DNA from: Branchiibius hedensis
GTDB lineage: Bacteria; Actinomycetota; Actinomycetes; Actinomycetales; Dermatophilaceae
Assembly: GCF_900108585.1 (NCBI RefSeq)
Contig: NZ_UESZ01000001.1
Span: 3,658,001 to 3,722,000, forward strand
Direction: 5' to 3'
DNA length: 64,000 bases
A model generated the notes under the pieces. The model was given only the letters and a program-made list of their open reading frames with translations. It was not told the origin of the DNA and searched no databases. The position numbers were made by a program, and so were the translations under genes. This document shows positions 907-35,470 of the stretch, one piece after another (position 1 is the first letter of the stretch; each line of letters opens with the position of its first letter).

Positions 907-2270
907 CGTTCTCCTCGGATCAGGAACTGCCCGTCGGGGCGTTCAATGGTCGCCGGTACGCCGCGCAGCCAGACCCGGCGGGCGACTCCGGACAGCGAAA
1001 CGCCTTCGTAGGCAGTCAGTTTGTTCTTGTGCTGCAGCTCGGCGGCGTGCACGGTGAACGCCTGCGACGGCGCCCACGCGACCAGATCCGCATCGCGGCC
1101 CACCTCGATCGCTCCTTTGCCGGTGAGACCCATCAGCGCTGCGGGCGAGGTGCTCATCCAGCGCACCACGTCGGCGAGGGTGAAACCGCGCCGCTGGGCC
1201 TCCGTCCAGACCGCACCCAGGGCCAACTGGACCGAGGCCACTCCGCCCCACGCAGCGCCCAGGTCGCCGGACTCGATCAGTTTCAGATCGACCGTGCACG
1301 GGGAGTGGTCGCTCACGACGATGTCGATCGTGCCGTCCGCCAACGCTTCCCACAGGGCATCGCGGTTGGCCTCGCTGCGGATCGGCGGGCAGCACTTGTG
1401 CGCCGTCGATCCGTCCCGGATGGTTTCGGCGGCGAAGGTCAGGTAGTGCGGGCAGGTCTCGACGGTGATCGGCAGACCCTCGGCCCTGGCGGCCCGGATC
1501 TCCGGCAACGCCGCGGCGCTGGACAGGTGCAGGATGTGTGCACGGCCGCCGGTGGCCCGCACTGCCTCGATGACCGTGCGGATCGCGGTGACCTCACTGG
1601 CATCCGGGCGGGACGCGGTGAAGTCGGTGTAGTGCGGACCGTGTGCGACAGGGGCCTTCGCCAACTCGTCGCCGTCTTCGGCGTGCACGATCAGCAACGC
1701 CCCGAGCTCGGCGGTGCGCGCCAGGTAGGTGTTGAGCTCCGCGGTCGACAATGGCGGGAACTCCGGTACACCCGAGTCCACGAGGAAGCACTTGAAACCG
1801 AAAACCCCTGCGCTGTCGAGCTTTTCCAGATCGTCCAGGTTGCCCGGGATCGCTCCGCCCCAGAAGCCGACGTCGACGTAGCACTGCCCGGCCGCTGCAT
1901 CCTGCTTGGTGCGCAGCGCATCAACGGTGACCGTGGAGGGCAGGCTGTTCAGCGGCATGTCGATGATGCTGGTCGTGCCACCCGACAGCGCCGCCCGGGT
2001 GGCCGTCGTGAAGCCCTCCCAGTCGGTGCGGCCTGGCTCGTTGACGTGCACGTGCGTGTCCACGCCACCGGGGATGAGGACCTCGTCGGGCTCGAGTTCG
2101 ACGAATTCGGTTGCGTCCCAGTCGGCGTCGAAGGGTCCGAGTCGTGCGATGCGACCGTCTTGCACGGCCACGCTCACCGGCCCGGTCCGCACGTCGTCGC
2201 CGGCGCCGAGCACGCTGTCGTGCGCCCGCAGGACGAGATCGAAGGTCACCACGTCAGTATCCCCGTTCAT
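903..2270 (-). CDS. allB: Allantoinase
   Basis: Cyclic amidohydrolase that opens allantoin to allantoate. The 455-residue protein has the family's usual length and landmarks in order: the metal-binding DTHVHVNEPGRTDWEGF near residue 70, a GGTTSIIDMPLNS segment, the KCFLVDSGV lysine segment (the lysine normally carboxylated to bridge two metals), VHAEDGDE, HILHLSSA and the late metal/catalytic Asp in VSDHSPC. It overlaps its upstream neighbour by 4 bp (ATGA, 2267-2270) and is followed by allantoicase, so the three genes form one operon expressed away from the IclR regulator. Confidence 0.96.
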   Translation of the reverse strand: MNGDTDVVTFDLVLRAHDSVLGAGDDVRTGPVSVAVQDGRIARLGPFDADWDATEFVELEPDEVLIPGGVDTHVHVNEPGRTDWEGFTTATRAALSGGTTSIIDMPLNSLPSTVTVDALRTKQDAAAGQCYVDVGFWGGAIPGNLDDLEKLDSAGVFGFKCFLVDSGVPEFPPLSTAELNTYLARTAELGALLIVHAEDGDELAKAPVAHGPHYTDFTASRPDASEVTAIRTVIEAVRATGGRAHILHLSSAAALPEIRAARAEGLPITVETCPHYLTFAAETIRDGSTAHKCCPPIRSEANRDALWEALADGTIDIVVSDHSPCTVDLKLIESGDLGAAWGGVASVQLALGAVWTEAQRRGFTLADVVRWMSTSPAALMGLTGKGAIEVGRDADLVAWAPSQAFTVHAAELQHKNKLTAYEGVSLSGVARRVWLRGVPATIERPDGQFLIRGER

Positions 2271-3517
2271 CGGGTCAGTCCGGTCAAAGCGGCCTCATCG
2301 AGGCCCGTTTTGGAGGTCACGTCGTCCTGGCTGAACGCGCCGCAGGCGATGCCGCGCAGCAGCGCGCTGGACAACATCCGGGCGGTCGCGGGTTCATCCA
2401 TCACGTCACCTTCGATGCGTTGCACGTACGCCGCGAGCCGGGCACATGCGGGATCGAAGGCCCGCCGGAAGAACAGGTAGGTCGCGGCGTAGCGGGAGAC
2501 CAGGTGCCCGGGTGCCATGTCCCAGCCCTGGTAGATGCCCCGCATCAGCGAGCGCTGCACCAGTCCCGCGTGCAGTCGCCAGGTTGCGAACGCCTGCTCG
2601 GCAGTGCCGAACGCCACCACGTTGGTGGAGCCGTCGGAGAGGCGAACTCCGGTCTGCGCGGCGGCGACCTGCATGACGTTCTTGGCGTGGTCGGCGACCG
2701 GGTGATCCAGCGATTGGTACGCGGCGGCGATGCCGAGTCCGGCCGAGTAGTCGAAGGTCCCGTAGTGCAGCGAGGTCACCCGGCCGCGCCCGGCGTGCAC
2801 CATCGCCGCGACGGCTGCGGTGCCATCCGGGGCCATGATCGCCTGCGCGGTCTCCACCTGGACCTCGAAACCGATGCTGCCGGCCGGCGCACCGAGCGCC
2901 TCCTCGAGGGCGTCCAGGGCGTCGGCCATGGCGGACACCTGTGGCACGGAGGTGACCTTCGGCAACGTGAGCGTGAGACCGGTGGGGACCTGGCCGTTGT
3001 CGACGACTCCGGCCAGGAAGCCGACCAGCGTGGCGATGCCGCGGTCACGGGTGGGTGCTTCGAAGGACTTGAACCGGATACCCCACCAGGGTGGGCGGAT
3101 CCCCTCCGCCCGTTGATCGGCGTACGCCGAGAGGCAGCGTTCGAGGTCAGCGTCCTCGACCGCGTCGGGCCGGCGCCCGTAGCCGTCCTCGAAGTCGATG
3201 CGCAGGTCCTCGATCGGTTCGCGCTGCAGTTTCGCGGCGATCAGTGGGTAGATCGGCTCGATGTCCGCCACGGGTTCGCCGAGGGCGGCGGCCAGGTGTG
3301 CAGCGTCGGGTGCGTAGTCGGCCAGCAGGCGTAGCGCCTCGTCACCCCAGGCCCGGGGCAGGTCGGAGCTGACGCGGTCCGCAGGTACGTACACGGTGTG
3401 GATCGGCTGCCGGTCGGTGCGATCGCCGGGGTAGCGGGCGGCCAGGTCGGCGTCAGCCTCGTGCAGGGTCGCATCCAGTTGGCGCTGCAGAGCGGTGATC
3501 GTGGCGGACGGGTCCAT
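2267..3517 (-). CDS. DUF6986-type aldolase/citrate-lyase-like protein of the allantoin operon
   Basis: First gene of the allantoin operon, 416 residues. I place the start at the ATG at 3517, which has AGGAGG 4 nt upstream; a longer in-frame reading to 3583 would run through the operator. The sequence resembles the HpcH/HpaI aldolase-citrate lyase-malate synthase TIM barrel: IDFEDGYG near residue 105, LTLPKV near 175, FEVQVETAQ with a candidate metal-ligand Glu near 215, and GTFDYS near 255. The exact reaction is unknown. Because allantoin degradation releases glyoxylate by way of ureidoglycolate, a glyoxylate-condensing or C2-handling role is a reasonable inference but is not shown by the sequence. 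Confidence 0.8.
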   Translation of the reverse strand: MDPSATITALQRQLDATLHEADADLAARYPGDRTDRQPIHTVYVPADRVSSDLPRAWGDEALRLLADYAPDAAHLAAALGEPVADIEPIYPLIAAKLQREPIEDLRIDFEDGYGRRPDAVEDADLERCLSAYADQRAEGIRPPWWGIRFKSFEAPTRDRGIATLVGFLAGVVDNGQVPTGLTLTLPKVTSVPQVSAMADALDALEEALGAPAGSIGFEVQVETAQAIMAPDGTAAVAAMVHAGRGRVTSLHYGTFDYSAGLGIAAAYQSLDHPVADHAKNVMQVAAAQTGVRLSDGSTNVVAFGTAEQAFATWRLHAGLVQRSLMRGIYQGWDMAPGHLVSRYAATYLFFRRAFDPACARLAAYVQRIEGDVMDEPATARMLSSALLRGIACGAFSQDDVTSKTGLDEAALTGLTR

Positions 3518-3533
3518 GAGGCCTCCTGGATAG

Positions 3534-3550
3534 TTTCCGAAATACGGAAA
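3534..3550. promoter_or_regulatory. Palindromic operator between allantoin operon and iclR gene
   Basis: TTTCCGAAATACGGAAA is a perfect 6-5-6 inverted repeat. It sits 17 bp before the aldolase start and about 95 bp before the divergent IclR-family gene. Similar copies occur at 4460-4476, 4481-4497, 6333-6349 and 8536-8552, all upstream of purine genes. I infer it is the operator of the IclR-family protein encoded next door. Confidence 0.7.
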
Positions 3551-3642
3551 TTGATTTCCACTCGACGGTACTATGGCTGTCAATGCCGCTGGGCGCTCTA
3601 CGCTAGGCCCACGATCGGCGCGAGCGATCAGGACAAGGACAG

Positions 3643-4404
3643 ATGGCGCAGAGCAAACCGGGTGGCGTGCAGTCGGTGACCCGCGCCCTGGACATCCTCG
3701 AGGCTATCGATGCAGCGGGCGGCGAGCAGGCATTGATCGAGATCGCTGCGGCCAGCGGGCTGCCGACGCCGACCATCCATCGGCTGGTGCGCACCCTGGT
3801 CGACCGGGGCTACCTGCGGCAGCTGCCCGACCGGCGCTACGCCCTGGGCTCGCGGCTGATCCCGCTGGGCAGTTCCGCGCTGACCGCGTTCGGATCGCGC
3901 AGTACGCCCGAATTGCGCCGGTTGGTCGGCGAACTCGGCGAAACCGCCAACCTGGCCACCCTCGACGGTGATCAGGTGGTCTACGTCGGCCAGGTGCCCT
4001 CGCCGCACGCGATGCGGATGTTCACCGACCTCGGACGGCACGTGCACGCCCACCCGCGGGCGACCGGCAAAGCGTTGCTGTCGCAGCTGTCCGATGACCA
4101 GGTGCGCGCTGTTCTGCGGCGCGCCGGGATGCCGGCCTTCACCTCGCGCACGATCACCTCGCCGGAGGAACTGCTCGCCCAGCTCGCCGTGGTGCGCGAG
4201 CGGGGCTGGGCGGTCGACGAGGGTGAACTCGAGGACGGAGTCGTCTGCCTCGCCGTCCCCGTGCCCAGTACGACCGCCCTGCTCGCAGTCTCCATCTCGG
4301 GCCCGGCGGTCCGGGTGGATGAGCGGGTGCGGGCACGCGCCGTACCTCTGTTGGCCCAGGTCGCCGCCGATCTGGCCACTCAGCTCGACGTCGCCTCCGC
4401 CTGA
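3643..4404 (+). CDS. allR: IclR-family transcriptional regulator (AllR-like)
   Basis: 253-residue regulator, the usual IclR length. Residues about 8-70 form the winged helix-turn-helix (SVTRALDILEAI through GYLRQLPDRRYALGSRL); the rest is the IclR effector domain, with GKALLSQL near 145 and a REGWAVDEGELEDGVVCLAVPV segment near 185-205. It lies between the allantoin operon and the uraD-uraH-uricase operon, which suggests it controls both, probably releasing DNA on binding allantoin, allantoate or glyoxylate as known AllR proteins do (family knowledge; the ligand is inferred). The ATG at 3643 is preceded by AAGGAC. Confidence 0.88.
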   Translation: MAQSKPGGVQSVTRALDILEAIDAAGGEQALIEIAAASGLPTPTIHRLVRTLVDRGYLRQLPDRRYALGSRLIPLGSSALTAFGSRSTPELRRLVGELGETANLATLDGDQVVYVGQVPSPHAMRMFTDLGRHVHAHPRATGKALLSQLSDDQVRAVLRRAGMPAFTSRTITSPEELLAQLAVVRERGWAVDEGELEDGVVCLAVPVPSTTALLAVSISGPAVRVDERVRARAVPLLAQVAADLATQLDVASA

Positions 4405-4500: not shown

Positions 4501-5004
4501 ATGAGCGAGTCCCTCGAGCTCGGCGCATTCAATGCGCTGCCTGCCGCCGAAGCCAGCGCCTGGCTGGAGCACCTGTGCTCCTCGCCGCGATGGGCGGCCG
4601 AGGTGGCAGCCGGGCGCCCGTACGCCGATCGGGCGGCGGTGCTGGAAGCCTCCGATGCCGTGTTCGCGGGGTTGGGTCCTGCCGACCTGGATGCCGCGCT
4701 CGCCGGTCATCCGCGGATCGGCGCAACGGTGTCCGCGCAGGGGCACAGCGCCGACCTGTCCCGCGCCGAGCAGTCCTCGATGGGCTCGGCCGACGACCAG
4801 GTGAAGGCGGCGTTGCGCGAGGGGAACATCGCCTACGAGCGGCGGTTCGACCGGGTCTTCCTGATCCGCGCCGCCGGTCGCTCACCGCACGAGATGCTCG
4901 CCGAACTCCAGCGACGGCTCGATAACGACGACGACACAGAGATCGCCGAAGTGCGCGAGCAACTGCGCCAGATCACCCGCCTGCGACTCCAAGGAGCACT
5001 ATGA
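4501..5004 (+). CDS. uraD: 2-oxo-4-hydroxy-4-carboxy-5-ureidoimidazoline (OHCU) decarboxylase
   Basis: Converts OHCU to (S)-allantoin, the last step of urate breakdown. The 167-residue protein is full length for the family. The catalytic His is in GHPRIG (His70), and the companion Ser and Glu are in LSRAEQ (Ser87, Glu90). The late segment IAYERRFDRVFLIRAAGRS carries the conserved Arg/Phe binding region. Only a weak GGAA lies before the ATG at 4501. The stop overlaps the uraH start (ATGA at 5001). A second, altered OHCU decarboxylase domain is fused to the permease encoded at 6509-8440. Confidence 0.95.
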   Translation: MSESLELGAFNALPAAEASAWLEHLCSSPRWAAEVAAGRPYADRAAVLEASDAVFAGLGPADLDAALAGHPRIGATVSAQGHSADLSRAEQSSMGSADDQVKAALREGNIAYERRFDRVFLIRAAGRSPHEMLAELQRRLDNDDDTEIAEVREQLRQITRLRLQGAL

Positions 5005-6332: not shown

Positions 6333-6349
6333 TCTCCACTCAGCGGAAT
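6333..6349. promoter_or_regulatory. Half-conserved IclR-type operator upstream of the permease gene
   Basis: The right half CGGAAT (6344-6349) is perfect; the left half TCTCCA matches NTTCCG only in its core. It lies about 20 bp before the -35 box of the permease promoter. It is the weakest member of the palindrome family that starts at 3534. Confidence 0.35.
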
Positions 6350-6367
6350 TTAGTTTTCGTTTTTTGC

Positions 6368-6399
6368 TTGACGCGGCCGATTTTGTGACTAGGCTCACA
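6368..6399 (+). promoter_or_regulatory. Permease promoter with overlapping Crp/GlxR-type site
   Basis: TTGACG (6368-6373), 16 bp, then TAGGCT (6390-6395) form a plausible promoter with a transcription start near 6402. The perfect palindrome TGTGACTAGGCTCACA (6384-6399) covers the -10 box. It matches the Crp/GlxR consensus TGTGA-N6-TCACA at all ten positions. Binding there would be expected to block this promoter, unless the true promoter lies further downstream. Confidence 0.5.
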
Positions 6400-6418
6400 G
6401 AGTCCCCGCGGGTGTTTG

Positions 6419-6461
6419 GCATGGATAACCAGCCGCGGATACTCGGTCAGCAAAACCATGT
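6419..6461 (+). ncRNA. Candidate xanthine/urate leader RNA, copy 1 (permease)
   Basis: A short stem (6419-6424 with 6456-6461, core CATGG/CCATG plus a G-U pair) encloses an asymmetric internal loop with AUAACC on the 5' side and GUCAGCAAAA or similar on the 3' side, then a 3-bp inner stem (6433-6435 with 6444-6446). The same stem and loop nucleotides recur at 8620-8661 before xdhA while the apical part differs. A small hairpin with a highly conserved internal bulge in front of xanthine permease and dehydrogenase genes is how the NMT1 (xanthine/uric acid) riboswitch has been described; membership in that class is inferred and I have not matched its consensus. Confidence 0.5.
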
Positions 6462-6492
6462 CTGCCGGTGGCATCCGCGCCGCCGGCTCTCG

Positions 6493-6508
6493 AGCGGAAA
6501 GGTCCGCT
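6493..6508 (+). promoter_or_regulatory. Hairpin presenting the permease ribosome-binding site
   Basis: AGCGGA (6493-6498) pairs perfectly with TCCGCT (6503-6508). The four-base loop AAGG is the best Shine-Dalgarno match, and the start codon follows directly at 6509. An upstream ATCCGC could pair with GCGGA(A) and open it. This is a plausible translational switch for the leader RNA at 6419-6461. Confidence 0.45.
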
Positions 6509-8440
6509 ATGACCACAGTGGCCGCGCCTCCACGCAAAGCCGTGCACCCCGTTGACGAGGTGCTCCCCGCACCGAAGCTGGCGATCTACGGCTTGCAACA
6601 CCTGCTGGCGTTCTACGCCGGCGCCGTCATCGTCCCGATCCTGCTGGCCAGCGGCATCGGTCTGGACACCAAGCAACTGATCCACCTGATCAACGCGGAC
6701 CTGTTCACCTGCGGTATCGCCTCGATCATCCAGTCGATCGGCTTCTGGAAGGTCGGTGTCCGGCTGCCGTTGCTGCAGGGCGTCACCTTCACCGCCGTCG
6801 CGCCGATGATCACGATCGGTCTGGCGGCCGGTGGCGGTACCGACGGTCTGCTCACCATCTACGGCTCGGTCATCGTCGCCGGTCTGGTCACCTTCCTGGT
6901 GGCGCCGTACTTCGGCAAACTGGTGCGGTACTTCCCACCGGTCGTGACCGGCACCGTCATCACCGTGATCGGTCTATCGCTGCTTCCGGTCGCTGCGGGC
7001 GACGCGGTCATGGACGCCAACGGCAAGGCGGACCCGACCAACGGGCGCAACCTGTGCTACGCGATCGGCACCATCCTGGTCATCGTCGCGCTGCAACGGG
7101 TCTTCCGCGGCTTCATCGCCACCATCGCGGTGCTGATCGGCCTGGTCGGTGGCACCGTGATCGCCTGGATGCTCGGCGACGCTGCCTTCAGCGAGGTCAG
7201 CAGTTCCTCGTGGGTGGGCGTGACGACTCCGTTCTACTTCGGCATCCCGAAGTTCAGTCTGGTCGCGATCATCTCGATGATCATCGTCATGATGATCACC
7301 GCGGTGGAGACCACCGGTGACGTCTTCGCGACCGCCGAAATCGTCGAGAAGCGAGTCGATTCCACCGATGTGACCCGTGCGCTGCGCGCCGACGGTGTGG
7401 CCACCTTCATCGGCGGCATCCTGAACTCCTTCCCCTACACCTGCTTCGCCGAGAACGTCGGCCTGGTGCGACTGACCCGGGTCAAGAGCAGGTACGTCGT
7501 GGCGACCGCTGGTCTGTTCATGATCATCCTCGGCCTCCTGCCGAAGGCGGGCGCTCTGGTGGCGGGCATCCCCAAGCCGGTGCTGGGTGGTGCCGGTCTG
7601 GCGATGTTCGCGACTGTGGCGGTCGTGGGTATCCAGACCCTGTCGAAGGTCGACTTCAACGACCACCGCAACGTGATCATCGTGGCGACCAGCCTGGCGC
7701 TGGCCATGATGGTGACCGCGCAGCCCGACATCGCCAAAGCGCTGCCGGACAAGCTGCAGGTGCTGCTGGGCAGCGGCATCACGATCGGTAGCATCGCGGC
7801 CTTCGTGCTCTACATGATCTTCTACCACGTGGGCAGTGATCGAGGGCCGGCTGTCGCGGGTTCGCCGGGCAATCTGATCCGCCTCGAGCAGGTCAACCAG
7901 ATGTCCGAGGACGAGTTCGCCCAGACCTTCGGCAGTCTCTTCCAGGGCCCGGACTGGGTGGTGCACCGCGCGTACGCGCAGCGGCCGTTCAGTGACACCG
8001 CCGATCTGCGGCGCTCGTTCCAGGAGGCGCTGTTCGCAGCGACCCCGCAGGAGCAAGCGGAACTGATCGCCGGCTATCCGCGCCTCGGCTCCGATGAGGT
8101 CATCGAGGGCACGACGGGTGCTGCTTCGCAGGAGGAGCAGTCCCTGCGCGGCCTGACCCACCTCAACGGCGCCGACCAGGAGCGGCTGGACGCGTTGACC
8201 TCGGCCTACCGGGAGCGGTTCGGCTTCCCGTTGGTGGTGTCGCTGCGCGATGAGGGCAGCTTCGACCAGATCATCGAGCACGGTGAACGCCGACTGCACA
8301 ACTCGGTGGTCCAGGAGCACAACAGCGCGATGGTCGAGATCGCTAAGATCGCCGGGTACCGCTTCGACGATCTGGTGGCCGAAGCCAACCCGCTGCAGGC
8401 GGCCGCACTGAGCCACCTGAACACCCCGCGCGACCGGTAG
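6509..8440 (+). CDS. NCS2 urate/xanthine permease fused to an OHCU-decarboxylase-like domain
   Basis: A 643-residue fusion. Residues about 20-450 are a nucleobase-ascorbate (NCS2) transporter with LPLLQGVTFTAVAPM near 90 and the family signature ENVGLVRLTRVKSR near 315, in many membrane segments. Residues about 470-640 match OHCU decarboxylase: ASQEEQ (Ser540, Glu543) and AYRERFGFPLVVSLR. The catalytic His of the HP motif is replaced by Tyr523 (GYPRLG), so this domain may be inactive or changed, whereas the stand-alone UraD keeps its His. I choose the ATG at 6509, with AAAGG upstream, over in-frame codons from 6416 because those would lie inside the leader RNA. It imports urate or xanthine and perhaps channels it. 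Confidence 0.92.
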   Translation: MTTVAAPPRKAVHPVDEVLPAPKLAIYGLQHLLAFYAGAVIVPILLASGIGLDTKQLIHLINADLFTCGIASIIQSIGFWKVGVRLPLLQGVTFTAVAPMITIGLAAGGGTDGLLTIYGSVIVAGLVTFLVAPYFGKLVRYFPPVVTGTVITVIGLSLLPVAAGDAVMDANGKADPTNGRNLCYAIGTILVIVALQRVFRGFIATIAVLIGLVGGTVIAWMLGDAAFSEVSSSSWVGVTTPFYFGIPKFSLVAIISMIIVMMITAVETTGDVFATAEIVEKRVDSTDVTRALRADGVATFIGGILNSFPYTCFAENVGLVRLTRVKSRYVVATAGLFMIILGLLPKAGALVAGIPKPVLGGAGLAMFATVAVVGIQTLSKVDFNDHRNVIIVATSLALAMMVTAQPDIAKALPDKLQVLLGSGITIGSIAAFVLYMIFYHVGSDRGPAVAGSPGNLIRLEQVNQMSEDEFAQTFGSLFQGPDWVVHRAYAQRPFSDTADLRRSFQEALFAATPQEQAELIAGYPRLGSDEVIEGTTGAASQEEQSLRGLTHLNGADQERLDALTSAYRERFGFPLVVSLRDEGSFDQIIEHGERRLHNSVVQEHNSAMVEIAKIAGYRFDDLVAEANPLQAAALSHLNTPRDR

Positions 8441-8460
8441 CCGGGGGCGGACTTCCCGGG

Positions 8461-8511
8461 TTTGGATGCGGTGTGCTGGATTGCTGTCGCAACACACGCA
8501 CCGCATCCAAA
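8461..8511 (+). terminator. Terminator after the permease gene
   Basis: TTTGGATGCGGTG (8461-8473) pairs perfectly with CACCGCATCCAAA (8499-8511), a 13-bp stem, with a further TGTG/CACA pairing inside. It begins 20 bp after the permease stop. There is no long T-run, so termination strength is uncertain. Confidence 0.6.
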
Positions 8512-8535
8512 TCCGCTCGGGAGCCTCGGCGGGGG

Positions 8536-8562
8536 AATCCGTATGGTGGAATTTGTATTCCA
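8536..8562. promoter_or_regulatory. Operator region upstream of xdhA
   Basis: Two overlapping palindromes. AATCCG-TATGG-TGGAAT (8536-8552) is a 10-of-12 match to the IclR-type motif seen at 3534. TGGAATTTGTATTCCA (8547-8562) is a perfect 6-4-6 inverted repeat that reuses its right half. They lie just upstream of a weak TAAGGT -10 box (8582-8587). Confidence 0.5.
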
Positions 8563-8586
8563 AAGTAGTCGCACCATGCGGTAAGG

Positions 8587-8602
8587 TGTGATCCGCCTCA
8601 CA
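8587..8602. promoter_or_regulatory. Crp/GlxR-type site upstream of xdhA
   Basis: TGTGATCCGCCTCACA matches TGTGA-N6-TCACA at all ten conserved positions. It ends 17 bp before the leader RNA at 8620, nearly the same distance as at the permease gene (6399 to 6419), which supports a shared control design. Confidence 0.5.
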
Positions 8603-8619
8603 AGGTCGTTGCTCGTTCG

Positions 8620-8661
8620 ACATGGATAACCGGGCGACTTCCTCGATCAGACCAACCATGT
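8620..8661 (+). ncRNA. Candidate xanthine/urate leader RNA, copy 2 (xdhA)
   Basis: ACATGG (8620-8625) pairs with CCATGT (8656-8661). The internal loop holds AUAACC (8626-8631) and AUCAGACCAA (8646-8655), and a CGA/TCG inner stem (8635-8637 with 8643-8645) has a different sequence from copy 1. The 21 bases ending in CCATGTC agree with copy 1 at 17 positions. Downstream, GTCCCCG and GCTGC (8660-8671) can pair with GCAGC and CGGGGAC around 8696-8711, a structure that would compete with the closing stem and could be the switching platform. Confidence 0.5.
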
Positions 8662-8737
8662 CCCCGGCTGCTGTGGTCCCCTAGGAAGTGGATCCGCAGC
8701 GCGGCGGGGACGGACGCGAGATTCGAAGGAGGCCGCG

Positions 8738-10192
8738 ATGCGAGCCACGGTCAACGGGAGCACCGCCTCACTGGATGAGGTGACCGCCCACACCAACGCG
8801 CTGGATTGGTTGCGCGACCAGGGCTTGACCGGCGCCAAGGAGGGCTGCGCCGAAGGGGAGTGCGGCGCCTGCTCGGTGCTGGTGGCTCGTCCGGACGCCG
8901 ATGGCAGCACCACCTGGACCGCGATCAACGCGTGCCTGATCCCGGCGCTGTCCCTCGAAGAGCAGACGGTCATCACGGCCGAGGGCCTCGGCGAACCCGG
9001 TGACCTGCACCCGGTCCAGCAGGAGATGGCGGTCCGCGGTGGATCGCAGTGTGGCTACTGCACCCCGGGTTTCGTGTGCAGCATGGCCGCGGAGTACTAC
9101 CGCAAGGACCGTGTCCCGGCATCCGATGCCGGTAGTGAAGCCGATGAGCACGGTGCGCATGAGTGCGGCCCGAACGGCTTCGACCTGCACGCCCTCAGTG
9201 GCAACCTGTGTCGCTGCACCGGCTATCGCCCGATCCGCGACGCGGCGTACGCCCTGGGCATTCCCGAGGACACCGACGAACTCGTGCAGCAGCACTCGCA
9301 ACCCGCCCCTGCGCCGGCGCACACCGACGTGACGGTTGCCGGTGCCCGGTATGTGCGACCGCAATCGCTGGCCGAGGCGATCGACCTTCTTGCCTCCGAC
9401 GACCAGGCGCAGTTGGTGGCCGGGTCCACCGACTGGGGGGTCGCCGCCAACCTGATGATGTCCCGGGCGACAACGCTCGTCGCGATCGACCGACTCGCGG
9501 AACTGCGTGACCTGACCGAGGATGAGACCGGCTTCACCATCGGCGCTGCGTTGACGCTCTCCGAGATCGAGCGGCGGCTGGCGGGCCGGATCCCGTTGCT
9601 GGACAAGCTGTTCCCGCAGTTCGCCTCCCGACTGATCCGCAACGGTGGCACCTTCGGGGGCAACCTCGGCACCGGCTCCCCGATCGGGGACAGCCCGCCC
9701 GCACTGCTCGCGTTGGAGGCATCGCTGCTCCTGGCCGGACCCGACGGCGAGCGCAGCGTGCCGCTGGCTGAGTACTTCACCGGCTACCGCCAGTCCGTGC
9801 GGGAGAAGGCCGAGATCATCAAGGCGGTCGTCATTCCCAAGCCACTGGCCGCACACACCGCCTTCCACAAGATCGCCAAGCGCCGGTTCGACGACATCTC
9901 GAGTGTCGCCGTCGGGCTGGCGATCGACCTGAGCGACGGAGTGGTCAGCAGGGCCCGGATCGGGCTAGGTGGTGTCGCGGCAACACCGTTGCGAGCAACC
10001 GCTGCGGAAGCCGTGCTGGAGGGCCGTCCGTGGACGGCCGGGACCGTGCGGGAAGCAGCTGCCGCGTTGGCTGATGCAGGTACGCCGATGAGCGACCACC
10101 GCGCGAGCAGCGCCTACCGCACGGCGATGCTGCGTACTGCGTTGCACAAGTTCTACGTGGAAACCACGTCCGTGCAGGAGGTCTCGGCATGA
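8738..10192 (+). CDS. xdhA: Xanthine dehydrogenase small subunit (2Fe-2S and FAD)
   Basis: Carries the iron-sulphur and flavin parts of xanthine dehydrogenase, passing electrons from the molybdenum subunit to FAD and NAD. In 484 residues the order is: plant-type 2Fe-2S cluster (Cys37, Cys42, Cys45 in GCAEGECGAC, with NACL following), the second cluster in QCGYCTPGF and LCRCTGYRP, a linker near 190, then a CO-dehydrogenase-type FAD domain with GGTFGGNLGTGSPIGDS near 305. The FeS and FAD parts are joined in one chain as in bacterial XdhA. GAAGGAGG precedes the ATG and the stop overlaps xdhB. Confidence 0.96.
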   Translation: MRATVNGSTASLDEVTAHTNALDWLRDQGLTGAKEGCAEGECGACSVLVARPDADGSTTWTAINACLIPALSLEEQTVITAEGLGEPGDLHPVQQEMAVRGGSQCGYCTPGFVCSMAAEYYRKDRVPASDAGSEADEHGAHECGPNGFDLHALSGNLCRCTGYRPIRDAAYALGIPEDTDELVQQHSQPAPAPAHTDVTVAGARYVRPQSLAEAIDLLASDDQAQLVAGSTDWGVAANLMMSRATTLVAIDRLAELRDLTEDETGFTIGAALTLSEIERRLAGRIPLLDKLFPQFASRLIRNGGTFGGNLGTGSPIGDSPPALLALEASLLLAGPDGERSVPLAEYFTGYRQSVREKAEIIKAVVIPKPLAAHTAFHKIAKRRFDDISSVAVGLAIDLSDGVVSRARIGLGGVAATPLRATAAEAVLEGRPWTAGTVREAAAALADAGTPMSDHRASSAYRTAMLRTALHKFYVETTSVQEVSA

Positions 10193-12651
10193 GTTCGTTG
10201 TCCCAGCGGCCGACCAATCCCATTGTGGGAGAGTCAATTCCGCACGAAGCAGCGAGTCTGCACGTGACGGGGAAGGCCCTCTACACCGACGACCTGGTCA
10301 TCCGGACCAAGGATGTGCTGCACGCCTGGCCGGTACAGTCCACCCACGCGCACGCCCGGGTGACAGCCGTGCGACTGGACGAGGCGCTCGCAGTGCCGGG
10401 CGTCGTACGGGTCCTCACGGCCGACGACGTACCCGGCGTGAACGATGCAGGTGTCAAGCACGACGAGCCGCTCTTCCCCAGTGAAGTGATGTTCCACGGG
10501 CACGCCATCTGCTGGGTTCTCGCGGACACGCTGGACGCGGCCCGGGTGGCCGCCGGCAAGGTCGAAGTCGACTACGAGCCGCTACCGGCGATCATGACCG
10601 TCACCGAGGCGATCGCTGCGGAGAGCTTCCAAGGCGCGCGACCGCACATGGAGCGGGGCGACGTCACAGCCGGATTCGCCGAGGCCGCGCACGTTTTCAG
10701 CGGTGAGTTCGAGTTCAAGGGCCAGGAGCACTTCTACCTGGAGACCCATGCCGCGCTCGCCCAGGTGGACGAGAACGGTCAGATCTTCATCCAGTCCAGC
10801 ACCCAGCACCCCAGTGAGACCCAGGAGATCGTCGCGCACGTGCTCGGTCTGGCCTCGCACGAGGTCACGGTGCAGTGTCTGCGGATGGGTGGCGGGTTCG
10901 GCGGCAAGGAAATGCAACCGCACGGATTCGCGGCGATCGCTGCCCTGGGCTCGATCCTGACCGGGCGGCCAGTCCGGCTGCGGCTCAACCGAACTCTGGA
11001 CATGACGATGTCCGGCAAGCGGCACGGATTCCACTCCGAGTGGAAGGTCGGCTTCGACGACGACGGTCACCTCCTGGCTCTCGAGGCCACGATCACCTCC
11101 GATGCCGGATGGAGCCTTGACCTGTCCGAGCCGGTGCTGGCTCGGGCGGTGTGCCACATCGAGAACGCCTACTGGATTCCCAACGTCTGTGTCGACGGCC
11201 GGATCGCCCGCACGAACAAGACCTCGCAGACCGCGTTCCGTGGCTTCGGTGGGCCGCAGGGGATGCTGGTGATCGAAGACATCCTGGGTCGGTGCGCACC
11301 GCTGCTAGGGATCGACCCGGCCGCGCTGCGCGCACGCAACCTCTACGGGCCAGGGCAGACCACGCCGTACGGGCAGGAAGTCACTCAGTGGGACCGGCTC
11401 GGCCGGGCCTGGCAACAGGCCTGCAACCAGGCCGGATTCGCCGAGCGCCAGCAGGAGATCGAGAAGTTCAATGCCGCGCACGATCACACGAAGCGAGCCA
11501 TCGCGGCGACTCCGGTGAAGTTCGGCATCTCCTTCAACCTGACCGCGTTCAACCAGGGCGGCGCGCTCGTCCTGGTCTACAAAGACGGCTCGGTGCTGAT
11601 CAACCACGGCGGCACCGAGATGGGTCAGGGACTGCACACGAAGATGCTGCAGGTCGCCGCCACGGCTCTGGGGGTACCGTTGTCCACGGTTCGCCTGGCA
11701 CCGACCCGGACCGACAAGGTGCCGAACACCTCGGCCACCGCGGCCAGTTCGGGCGCGGACCTCAACGGAGGTGCGGTCAAGAACGCCTGTGAGCAGATCA
11801 TCGAGCGACTCCGTCCGGTGGCGGCCCAGCACTTCGGCGTCAACCCCGCGGACGTGCGCTTCGACCACGGAGTCGTCAGCGCGATCGGCAGCACCGCGGA
11901 GCCATTGCCGTGGGCCGAGCTGACCAAACGCGCCTATTTCCAACGGGTTCAGCTCTCGGCGGCGGGCTACTACCGCACCGAGGGTCTGCACTGGGACTCC
12001 TCGACGATGACCGGATCGCCGTTCAAGTACTTCGCCAACGGCGTCGCCGTCTGCGAGGTGGAGGTGGACGGTTTCACCGGTGCCTACCAAACGCGTCGGG
12101 TCGACATCGTGCACGACGTCGGCGACAGCCTCTCGCCGTTGGTCGACATCGGCCAGATCGAGGGCGGTTTCGTGCAGGGCGCCGGTTGGATGACCCTGGA
12201 GGAGTTGGTCTGGGACGAGTCGGATGGCCCGCGCCGCGGGCGTCTGGCGACGCAGGCGGCGAGTACCTACAAGCTGCCGAGCTTCTCGGAGATGCCGCAG
12301 GAGTTCCACGTGTCACTGCTCGAGCAGGCGCACGAGGAAGGCGCTGTCTACGGGTCCAAAGCGGTGGGTGAACCGCCGCTGATGCTGGCTTTCGCCGTCC
12401 GGGAGGCGTTGCGACAGGCGGCCGCTGCCTTCGGGCCGGCGGGCGCGAGCGTGGATCTTGCGTTGCCGGCCACTCCCGAGGCTGTCTACTGGGCTCTGGA
12501 AGCGGCGCGGTCAGGTGAAGCCGACGGCAACGTACGCCGCGACTCGGCTGCCGTTGAGCCCGAACGGATTCCGGGTGGTCACCCGATGCGCCCGGAATCC
12601 GAACGAGTAGCTGCGGCAGAGCAGCCCCAGCCAGCGGGTAGTCGGCCGTGA
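10189..12651 (+). CDS. xdhB: Xanthine dehydrogenase molybdopterin-binding subunit
   Basis: Catalytic subunit that hydroxylates hypoxanthine and xanthine at a molybdenum cofactor. The 820 residues include the MGGGFGGKE motif near 235, the substrate-binding Arg in AFRGFGGPQG near 350, GTEMGQGLHTKM near 480 and the catalytic Glu in VGEPPLML near 725. It is coupled to xdhA by ATGA and to xdhC by GTGA. The C-terminal 60 residues or so (after WALEAARSGEADG) are polar and low in similarity, so they may be a lineage-specific tail. Confidence 0.96.
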   Translation: MSSLSQRPTNPIVGESIPHEAASLHVTGKALYTDDLVIRTKDVLHAWPVQSTHAHARVTAVRLDEALAVPGVVRVLTADDVPGVNDAGVKHDEPLFPSEVMFHGHAICWVLADTLDAARVAAGKVEVDYEPLPAIMTVTEAIAAESFQGARPHMERGDVTAGFAEAAHVFSGEFEFKGQEHFYLETHAALAQVDENGQIFIQSSTQHPSETQEIVAHVLGLASHEVTVQCLRMGGGFGGKEMQPHGFAAIAALGSILTGRPVRLRLNRTLDMTMSGKRHGFHSEWKVGFDDDGHLLALEATITSDAGWSLDLSEPVLARAVCHIENAYWIPNVCVDGRIARTNKTSQTAFRGFGGPQGMLVIEDILGRCAPLLGIDPAALRARNLYGPGQTTPYGQEVTQWDRLGRAWQQACNQAGFAERQQEIEKFNAAHDHTKRAIAATPVKFGISFNLTAFNQGGALVLVYKDGSVLINHGGTEMGQGLHTKMLQVAATALGVPLSTVRLAPTRTDKVPNTSATAASSGADLNGGAVKNACEQIIERLRPVAAQHFGVNPADVRFDHGVVSAIGSTAEPLPWAELTKRAYFQRVQLSAAGYYRTEGLHWDSSTMTGSPFKYFANGVAVCEVEVDGFTGAYQTRRVDIVHDVGDSLSPLVDIGQIEGGFVQGAGWMTLEELVWDESDGPRRGRLATQAASTYKLPSFSEMPQEFHVSLLEQAHEEGAVYGSKAVGEPPLMLAFAVREALRQAAAAFGPAGASVDLALPATPEAVYWALEAARSGEADGNVRRDSAAVEPERIPGGHPMRPESERVAAAEQPQPAGSRP

Positions 12652-13451
12652 GTTGGGTCTCGGACGTCGCTGCCGCGCGGGCCCGACGAGAGCCTGCCGT
12701 CCTGGTGACGGTGACGGCCTCACGCGGGCACGTCCCCCGCGACGCGGGGGCCAAGATGCTCGTGACGGCGACGCGGGAGAGCGGCAGTGTGGGTGGCGGC
12801 AATCTCGAGCAGTCGGCCATCGAGAAGGCACGGGAGTTGATTGCCTCCGGTGAGTCCGCGCCGACGGCTTTGGAATTCGCCCTCAACGAGCACGCCCCGG
12901 TCGAGCACGGCACCCAGTGCTGCGGCGGGGAGGTCACGTTGCTGCTGGAGCCGATCCTGCCGGTGCCGGCGATTGCGATCTTCGGCGCCGGCCACGTGGG
13001 GCTGGAGCTTTCCCGGATCCTGGTGCGGCACGATCTCGACCTGCATCTGATCGACTCACGGGCAGGAGAACTCGCTGCCGATCGGTTGACCTGTCTGGAG
13101 GATCCGGTCGGCACACTCACCGTGCATCACGCGCCGGTGCCGGAACTCGTCCTCGGGCAGATCCCGCGGGGAACTCACGTGTTGATCATCACGCACGACC
13201 ACGCCGAAGACATGGCGCTGTGCGATGCCGCCCTGCGCTGTGGTCATCTGGGCAGCGTCGGCCTCATCGGATCGCGGTCCAAGTGGCGGCGCTTCGAGAA
13301 AAGGCTTCTGGCTGAGGGGCATTCACCGCAGGCGGTGGCCGCCATCAGTTGCCCGATCGGGCTGCCGTCGATCACCGGCAAGGAGCCCGCGGTGATCGCG
13401 CTGAGTGTGGCTGCGCAGTTGGCGTCCCAGTTCGCGGTGGTGCCGGCGTGA
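12648..13451 (+). CDS. xdhC: Xanthine dehydrogenase accessory protein XdhC
   Basis: Needed for sulphuration and insertion of the molybdenum cofactor into XdhB. The 267 residues show the N-terminal XdhC/CoxI domain with GSVGGGNLEQ near 45 and EHGTQCCGGEV near 85, then a Rossmann-type C-terminal domain with IAIFGAGHVGLELSRIL near 110, HDHAEDMALCDAAL near 185 and GLIGSRSKWRRF near 205. The GTG start overlaps the xdhB stop and its own stop overlaps the guanine deaminase start. Confidence 0.94.
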   Translation: MSWVSDVAAARARREPAVLVTVTASRGHVPRDAGAKMLVTATRESGSVGGGNLEQSAIEKARELIASGESAPTALEFALNEHAPVEHGTQCCGGEVTLLLEPILPVPAIAIFGAGHVGLELSRILVRHDLDLHLIDSRAGELAADRLTCLEDPVGTLTVHHAPVPELVLGQIPRGTHVLIITHDHAEDMALCDAALRCGHLGSVGLIGSRSKWRRFEKRLLAEGHSPQAVAAISCPIGLPSITGKEPAVIALSVAAQLASQFAVVPA

Positions 13452-14743
13452 GCGTGATCTTCCGGGCCCGCGTGCTGGACACGCCGGATGACCCGTTCGC
13501 CGGAGGTTCGCTGCGCTCCGGTGATGACGTCGGACTGTTGGTGGACAACGGAATCATCACCGCCCGTGGCGAATTCGCCGCTGTCCGGATCGACGCACCC
13601 GATGCCCAGGTGGTCGACCTGCGCGACGGTGTGCTCATCCCCGGACTGGTCGACACGCATGTCCACTTCCCACAGGTGCACGTCATCGGTGGCCTGGGTA
13701 TGCCCCTGTTGGACTGGTTGGAGCGCTGCGCGTTGCCCGAGGAGGCGCGCCTGGCCGACCGGGCGTACGCCGAGCAGATCGCCCGGGAGTTCCTGTCCGG
13801 GGTGCTGGCCGCGGGTACGACCTCGGCCATGGTGTTCGGGGCACACTTCGCCACGGCGATGGACGCGTTCTTCGGCGAGGCAGCGCGCGTCGGTATGCGG
13901 GCCACCGCGGGTCTGGTCGTCAGCGATCGGATCCTGCGCTCGGATCTGCTGACCAGCCCGACGCGGGCCTACGAGGAGAGCCGGGCCCTGATCGACACCT
14001 GGCACGGCCGCGGTCGGTTGCGGTACGCCGTCACACCACGGTTCGCGCTCTCGGCGTCGGGTCCGATGCTGGAGTCCTGCCAGCAACTGGTGAAGGACAC
14101 CCCGGATCTGTTCGTCACCTCGCACGTCAACGAGAACAACCGGGAGATCGCAGAGGTGGCAGCGTTGTTCCCGGACTCCCGGGACTACGTCGACTGCTAC
14201 GACCAATACGGACTACTCGGCCGGCGGACGATTCTGGCGCACAACGTGCACCCGAAGCCGGCGGAGCTGGCTGCACTTGCGTCCGCCTCTGCATCGGTAT
14301 CGCACTGCCCGACCAGCAACGCTTCTCTCGGCAGCGGCTTCTTCCCGTTGCGTGAGCACCTCGACGCCGGTGTGCGAGTGGCGCTGGGCAGCGACGTCGG
14401 GGGTGGCACCGGGTTCAGTCTGTTCAAAGAGGGGCTGCAGGCCTACTTCGTGCAGCAACTCCTGGGCGACAAGGGCGTACAGCTGACGCCCGCTCACCTG
14501 CTCTACCTGGCCACCGCAGCGGGAGCACAGGCGCTCGACCTGGCCGAGACGGTCGGTGACCTGTCCGTCGGAAAGTCCTTCGACGCCGTACTTGTCCAGC
14601 CGGCAACGGGATCCACGCTCGACGTGTGCCTGAAGAACGCAGCCGACCCCAGCGATGCGCTGGCCAAGATGTTCGTCCTCGGCACGGCGTACGACGTGGC
14701 GAAGGTCTGGATCGGCGGCGACGCCGTGCATTCGCGCGACTGA
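13448..14743 (+). CDS. guaD: Guanine deaminase
   Basis: Zinc amidohydrolase that turns guanine into xanthine, feeding xanthine dehydrogenase. The 431-residue protein starts at the GTG at 13448, which overlaps the xdhC stop; the open frame continues upstream only into xdhC. Zinc and active-site motifs appear in order: DTHVHFPQ near 72-79, VTPRFALS near 200, SHVNEN near 225, AHNVHP near 260 and GSDVGGGTGFSLF near 315-327. Last gene of the xdh operon; a GC-rich hairpin follows. Confidence 0.95.
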   Translation: MSVIFRARVLDTPDDPFAGGSLRSGDDVGLLVDNGIITARGEFAAVRIDAPDAQVVDLRDGVLIPGLVDTHVHFPQVHVIGGLGMPLLDWLERCALPEEARLADRAYAEQIAREFLSGVLAAGTTSAMVFGAHFATAMDAFFGEAARVGMRATAGLVVSDRILRSDLLTSPTRAYEESRALIDTWHGRGRLRYAVTPRFALSASGPMLESCQQLVKDTPDLFVTSHVNENNREIAEVAALFPDSRDYVDCYDQYGLLGRRTILAHNVHPKPAELAALASASASVSHCPTSNASLGSGFFPLREHLDAGVRVALGSDVGGGTGFSLFKEGLQAYFVQQLLGDKGVQLTPAHLLYLATAAGAQALDLAETVGDLSVGKSFDAVLVQPATGSTLDVCLKNAADPSDALAKMFVLGTAYDVAKVWIGGDAVHSRD

Positions 14744-35156: not shown

Positions 35157-35243
35157 GGCGGAGGATGGGGGATTCGAACCCCCGAGAGCTTTCACTCAAC
35201 ACGCTTTCCAAGCGTGCGCACTAGGCCACTATGCGAATCCTCC
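35156..35243 (-). tRNA. tRNA-Ser, anticodon GGA
   Basis: Reverse strand gives acceptor GGAGGAT...ATCCTCC with discriminator G and encoded CCA (35156-35158). The anticodon loop is in CGCTTGGAAAGCG (GGA), there is a long variable arm (about TGTTGAGTGAAAGCTC), and the T arm is GGGGGTTCGAATCCCCC. Reads UCC and UCU. Confidence 0.95.
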
Positions 35244-35329: not shown

Positions 35330-35425
35330 AAGTGGTCCCTCACGCGGTGGTACCTCACTGAACTCCCCCAGGGCAGGAATGCAGCAAGGGCAGGTGAGCT
35401 CTTCCAGGTGCGTGAGGGATCTTCA
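35330..35425 (+). ncRNA. ffs: Signal recognition particle RNA, small bacterial type
   Basis: About 96 nt. The ends pair (TCCCTCACGC at 35336-35345 with GCGTGAGGGA at 35410-35419). The tip carries the Ffh-binding signature CCCCCAGGGCAGGAATGCAGCAAGGG (key bases at 35365-35390), with a GGAA tetraloop closed by GCA/TGC instead of the common GCC/GGC, a compensated change. Small SRP RNA just upstream of dnaX is a common actinobacterial arrangement. The transcript is expected to end before the leaderless dnaX start at 35471. Confidence 0.9.
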
Positions 35426-35470
35426 CGTCCGCGCTCCCAGCCTGTCGGTGACCGCTACTAGATTGGCGGG

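Follow-up and report, generated by a model that had tools for sequence, protein, structure and literature searches.

A conserved leader RNA of about 57-61 nt precedes the xanthine permease gene and xdhA of Branchiibius hedensis and recurs before genes of the same pathway in other actinobacteria. That this leader is a real H-type pseudoknot is virtually certain. The best explanation as a whole, to which we assign a probability of about 0.7, is a riboswitch at the very 5' end of the mRNA that holds a guanine-type purine in a pocket like that of the preQ1-I riboswitch. The Actinomycetes would thereby gain a candidate riboswitch class supported by covariation, and with it an RNA sensor for guanine and xanthine catabolism.

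Two copies of the element and the genes behind them

The window is the whole stretch of B. hedensis DNA that was analyzed, 64,000 nucleotides in length. A sequence-only reading had singled out two segments in it, 6419-6461 and 8620-8661, as a paired leader element with shared 5' and 3' blocks. The shared blocks were confirmed: CATGGATAACC is present at 6420-6430 and 8621-8631, and CTCG-R-TCAG-N3-AACCATGTC at 6442-6462 and 8642-8662, with 17 of 21 positions identical. The combined pattern has exactly two matches in the whole 4.0 Mb genome and its reversed control has none, which rules out chance occurrence. Both segments are real, but the element begins upstream of them, with a strand at 6406-6414 in the first copy and at about 8602-8615 in the second.

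As had been proposed, the segments precede a xanthine permease gene (start ATG 6509) and xdhA (start ATG 8738). The permease, of the NCS2/PbuX type, is encoded on the plus strand at 6509-8440 and is fused to an OHCU decarboxylase domain (TIGR03173, 510 bits, and TIGR03164, 108 bits, both above cut-off), which occupies the C-terminal residues 465-622. A second, separate OHCU decarboxylase-like gene is located at 4501-5004. The genes xdhA, xdhB and xdhC (8738-13451, plus strand) were identified with the TIGR02963, TIGR02965 and TIGR02964 profiles; the latter two matches were above cut-off, while xdhA had TIGR02963 as its best match with 430 bits, below the cut-off of 467. The xdh operon also contains guanine deaminase (13430-14743, plus strand; TIGR02967, 410 bits, above cut-off). 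Elsewhere in the window, a malyl-CoA lyase/malate-synthase-like protein (2267-3583, minus strand) adjoins allantoinase, which suggests glyoxylate disposal after ureide breakdown. A bacterial small SRP RNA is found at 35331-35427 (plus strand) and a tRNA gene at 35159-35243 (minus strand).

Structure of the element

The fold consists of two crossing helices. In S1, of 8-9 bp, the bases just before the loop L1 (consensus UUC) pair with the bases just after the loop L2 (consensus NNAAC), while S2, of 6-7 bp with the consensus GCAUGG/CCAUGC, is closed across the variable, C-rich loop L3, which ends in A. L2 is AUAAC, with ACAAC, AAAAC, CCAAC and AUGAC as further forms, and the distance from AUAAC to the downstream AACC is 18-31 nt in the relatives. 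Representative members are GACGGCUG-UUC-GCAUGG-AUAAC-CAGCCGUC (L095) and AGCCACCG-UUG-GCAUGG-AUAAC-CGGUGGCU (L064).

Both copies in the window lie on the plus strand and could be assigned to this scheme. In the permease copy, the S1 5' strand CCGCGGGUG (6406-6414) pairs with the 3' strand CAGCCGCGG (6430-6438), with a single G.G mismatch at 6412/6432. L1 is UUU (6415-6417), where G-UU precedes S2 in 53 of 53 non-redundant relatives. The S2 strands GGCAUGG (6418-6424) and CCAUGUC (6456-6462) include the covarying seventh pair and a G.U at 6419/6461. L2 is AUAAC (6425-6429), which follows the NNAAC of nearly all members, and L3 (6439-6455) ends in AA. In the xdhA copy, the S1 5' strand is interrupted, AAG(g)UCG(uug)CUCG at about 8602-8615, and pairs with CGGG-CGA-CUU at 8631-8640. 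It is followed by L1 UUC (8616-8618), the S2 5' strand GACAUGG (8619-8625), L2 AUAAC (8626-8630), L3 (8641-8655, again ending in AA) and the S2 3' strand CCAUGUC (8656-8662). This copy has an A-U pair at 8620/8661, where relatives have G-C. The last 3 nt of S2 overlap an alternative hairpin, GUCCCCG/CGGGGAC (8660-8666/8705-8711).

The closing stem of the sequence-only reading is thus S2. It does pair, over 7 bp in each copy, but the two stems are not identical, as the G.U and A-U pairs at the second position show. The single hairpin with an inner stem had to be abandoned: covariation supports the H-type pseudoknot, and the apical CCG/CGG and CGA/TCG pairs, which had been taken for compensated changes, are not kept in relatives. 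CCG and CGA pair upstream instead, as part of S1. The inner hairpin together with the shared TCAG block was rejected for the same reason, both being absent in most relatives.

The pairing of S1 was evaluated in the 53 non-redundant members. The mean duplex energy was -20.6 kcal/mol with each member's own strands and -15.3 kcal/mol (sd 0.47) when strands were swapped between members; none of 500 swaps reached the own-strand value, the best giving -17.2 kcal/mol. Covariation was scored on rows trimmed to S1-L1-S2-L2-S1-AA-S2, leaving out the variable L3. S1 scored 0.326 in the 28 sequences with a 3-nt L1, compared to 0.156 (sd 0.016) for shuffled alignments, and 0.402 in the 20 sequences with a 4-nt L1, compared to 0.168 (sd 0.021), with 0 of 500 shuffles reaching the observed value in either set. 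The shuffles keep the relatedness of the sequences, and slid registers are the safer control; the best of these scored 0.113 and 0.112, so that S1 had at least twice the score of any slid register in both alignments.

S2 is nearly invariant and yet covaries. The fourth base of the longer L1 forms a seventh S2 pair in 17 of 20 sequences (GC 7, UA 6, CG 2, GU 1, UG 1), and the sixth pair may be G-C, A-U or G.U. Moreover, the member before xdhC-guaD in L254 carries a natural double change from U-A to C-G (GCACGG/CCGUGU). Folding of single sequences gave z values of -1.0 to +0.15 and is uninformative here, because the method cannot predict pseudoknots.

Distribution in relatives

When 150 genomes of the family were searched with the pattern, the element turned up before xdhA in one more genus, and a covariance model built from four sequences extended it to other families of the order. 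One genome has two copies about 3 kb apart, one before guanine deaminase and the other before xdhA. The pattern GCATGGATAACC-N16..30-AACCATG was then scanned against one genome per species in 84,980 species. The scan returned 94 stretches, 80 of them with tabulated loci, and 66 of these 80 are upstream of xdhA, guanine deaminase or the permease. They come from Pedococcus, Phycicoccus, Brevibacterium, Arthrobacter, Agromyces, Georgenia, Occultella, Leucobacter, Flexivirga, Kineosphaera, Nocardioides, Microlunatus, Tsukamurella and other genera. The 14 loci without such a gene are scattered, chance-like and mostly outside the actinobacteria. Altogether, 76 distinct copies were collected (53 non-redundant), 69 before xdhA, five before guanine deaminase and two before the permease. 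All 76 precede purine catabolism genes and none precedes a queuosine gene.

The AAC-C and AACC motifs belonged to the first search patterns, and their invariance is therefore partly a product of selection. NNAAC is kept in almost every member, also in those recovered without use of the motif pattern. Among 248 genomes of the order, 43 had an xdhA orthologue, and the regions upstream of these genes were inspected as a motif-independent check. The element was found in 24 of the 43 (our own count, G015 included); it was absent upstream of xdhA in a Streptomyces-like family with large genomes (f21) and in a further family (f105). A phylum-wide search with a model of S2 only was filtered strictly, and few candidates were kept. 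In a search centered on guaD, this gene mostly had no element of its own, because it is located inside the xdh operon; the exception is an xdhC-guaD operon without xdhAB (L254:3900-6300, genome G018), directly behind its own element. The covariation and conservation that the sequence-only reading had called for are therefore present, in a leader tied to xanthine and urate genes in actinobacteria.

Promoters and nearby DNA sites

The permease promoter has a -10 box TAGGCT (6390-6395) and a -35 box TTGACG (6368-6373) with a spacing of 16, and the xdhA promoter a -10 box TAAGGT (8582-8587), all on the plus strand. The TANNNT pattern of these boxes recurs in relatives: in 48 of the 53 members such a hexamer lies 14-32 nt, mostly 14-24 nt, upstream of the S1 5' strand end, and it is almost absent elsewhere in the 120 nt examined. 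Transcription should accordingly start at or just before S1, and the element should be the very 5' end of the mRNA, as judged from the -10 boxes. A start downstream of 6424 or 8625, which would leave the 5' strand of S2 out of the RNA, does not agree with their position.

Several palindromes were observed in the same regions. Perfect CRP/GlxR-like palindromes, TGTGACTAGGCTCACA (6384-6399) and TGTGATCCGCCTCACA (8587-8602), overlap both -10 boxes, and some relatives, for example L152, have TGTGA-N6-TCAC sites of a similar kind close to the promoter. Upstream of the promoters are TGGAATTTGTATTCCA (8547-8562) and a weaker GGAATTTAGTTTTC (6345-6358). GGAA-N6-TTCC palindromes recur in several relatives and may represent an operator of the IclR/AllR type; the window has an IclR-family gene at 3643-4404. 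Additionally, L004, L005, L012, L015 and relatives (the Phycicoccus/Pedococcus group) share a further conserved palindrome, TTCAACAGTTTGTTGA, some 20-40 nt before the -10 box; this palindrome is probably another DNA operator.

Proposed ligand and mode of switching

A conserved, structured leader confined to the genes of one pathway is the general mark of a riboswitch, and the element is likely to be one. We infer its ligand, pocket, direction of switching and expression platform as follows. S1 and S2 would stack, bringing together at their junction L1 (UUC), L2 (NNAAC) and the A that ends L3. A guanine-type purine would be sandwiched there between two G-C pairs, the invariant top pair of S1 and the junction pair of S2. 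It would pair with the last C of L2, the proposed specificity base, and its other edge would be recognized by the opening U of L1 and the terminal A of L3, in the way that preQ1-I holds preQ1. By this analogy, the odds of a guanine-type purine in such a pocket are somewhat better than even. In the guanine-type guanine-I riboswitch, a C is the specificity base.

The candidates may be ordered as guanine, then xanthine or hypoxanthine. Guanine comes first because guanine deaminase, encoded by one of the controlled genes, acts on it, and xanthine second because it is the next intermediate; as a specific ligand, guanine is a guess that falls somewhat short of even odds.

Ligand binding would lock S2 and thereby set the fate of the CCAUGC strand, the possible switching strand, and of the leader behind it, and in this way would control the permease, xdhABC and guaD. 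Catabolic logic would favor switching ON, and the element would then be an RNA sensor that turns on the breakdown of guanine to urate. From the element to the start codon the leader spans 32-77 nt. The S2 3' strand is able to pair with the Shine-Dalgarno region in certain lineages, as in the Flexivirga permease (CAUGCUCC/GGAGCGUG), in Occultella (CCAUGC/GCGUGG) and in Actinotalea, and such pairing would make an ON switch. Over the whole set of members, sequestration of the Shine-Dalgarno sequence by CCAUGC was not above that in shuffled leaders (p=0.34); downstream pairing of any kind by the S2 3' strand showed a weak excess (p=0.012).

Alternative explanations

One alternative is that a real pseudoknot serves as the binding site of a protein, such as a regulator or RNA chaperone, or only stabilizes the 5' end of the mRNA, with no small ligand. 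The location at the mRNA 5' end and an expression platform that is not uniform would fit such a role. However, the short invariant junction loops (G-UU, NNAAC-C, A) beside a freely varying S1 and L3 resemble a small-molecule pocket, and the conservation is strictly tied to one pathway, which makes this explanation unlikely. It is far less probable that the conserved letters are a DNA operator bound by a repressor downstream of the promoter. GCATGG-n-CCATGC is a perfect inverted repeat near the promoter, and the upstream palindromes suggest that DNA-binding regulators also act here, but the distance between the two arms ranges over about 13 nt without helical periodicity, and the covariation of S1 is in the crossing register of a pseudoknot. 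The AUG-GAU-AAC found in nearly all copies could also be read as the start of a regulatory leader peptide. This is hardly credible, since the AUAAC-to-AACC distances are spread evenly over the three frames and near relatives differ by single-base indels, indicating that nothing downstream of AUG-GAU-AAC is read in frame.

Membership in a known class was evaluated with the Rfam 15 models. Neither element in the window nor that of L064 had a meaningful match at E<=10, and the elements in 18 loci had no match at gathering score. The sequence-only reading had offered either an actinobacterial branch of NMT1 or a new class. The NMT1/xanthine-I riboswitch serves the same pathway and is of similar length, but RF03054 had no match at E<=10 in either element and none genome-wide (control genomes were likewise without a match), and crossing helices supported by covariation replace the bulged hairpin. 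There is next to no chance of an NMT1 branch, and of the two options a new class is preferable; xanthine could still be sensed by a different fold. A true preQ1-I riboswitch that senses preQ1 or preQ0 would account for the fold type and the pocket bases, but RF00522 had no match at E<=10 in three elements, nor at gathering score in the 18 loci, and the genes all belong to purine catabolism and none to queuosine. We regard it as very improbable. No earlier description of the element was found in open-access papers; subscription papers and preprints were outside the scope of this search.

Comparison with known riboswitches

The pseudoknot riboswitch proposed here shares purine sensing with the guanine-I riboswitch and its xanthine, guanine and 2'-dG variants, which differ in being three-way junctions with a loop-loop contact and which gave no Rfam match. 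The NMT1/xanthine-I riboswitch (RF03054), which binds xanthine and urate, is, like the element, short and controls genes of purine transport and oxidation. It differs in being a hairpin with conserved internal junctions (P1-J1-P2a-J2-P2b) and other conserved bases, described in Proteobacteria only (PMC7373994, PMC8266621), and it is reported as an OFF switch (PMC7373994).

The closest likeness is to preQ1-I (RF00522) types II and III. Both are H-type pseudoknots with S1 closed by G-C, a U or UU right after the S1 5' strand, an L2 that ends in AC before the S1 3' strand, and an A at the end of L3 that adjoins the junction G-C of S2. In preQ1-I, AC directly precedes the S1 3' strand in types II and III, and UU follows the 5' strand in type III (PMC11625349). 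The ligand forms hydrogen bonds with three loop bases, U6 in L1, the terminal C15 of L2 and the terminal A29 of L3, and stacks on G5-C16 in S1 and on G11 in S2 (PMC8612554). Mapped by hand onto this description, without a 3D model, the conserved G-UU, AAC-C and A-C of the element fall at the topological positions of the preQ1-I pocket, the equivalents in the Tte aptamer being G5, U6, C15, C16, A29 and C30-G11 (PMC8612554, PMC11625349). The proportions differ: S1 has 8-9 bp rather than 5-6, S2 is longer, with 6-7 Watson-Crick pairs of near-invariant sequence, L2 is one base longer, and L3 is longer, variable and not A-rich, whereas that of preQ1-I is. Because these proportions, the covariance-model match and the gene context, guanine and xanthine catabolism rather than queuosine, all fail, the element is not filed as a member of preQ1-I.

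A new Actinomycetes class in which a preQ1-I pseudoknot pocket is used for an ordinary catabolic purine, guanine or xanthine, has a little less than an even chance. According to a 2024 review, all class I types bind the same ligand (PMC11625349), so that a preQ1-I-like pocket before guanine deaminase and xanthine dehydrogenase makes the reuse of this fold for natural purines directly testable. The element is short, and binding, structure and reporter tests should therefore be easy. If the proposal is true, it would mark the first case in nature of a preQ1-I relative, or of a convergent copy of that fold, with a switched ligand.
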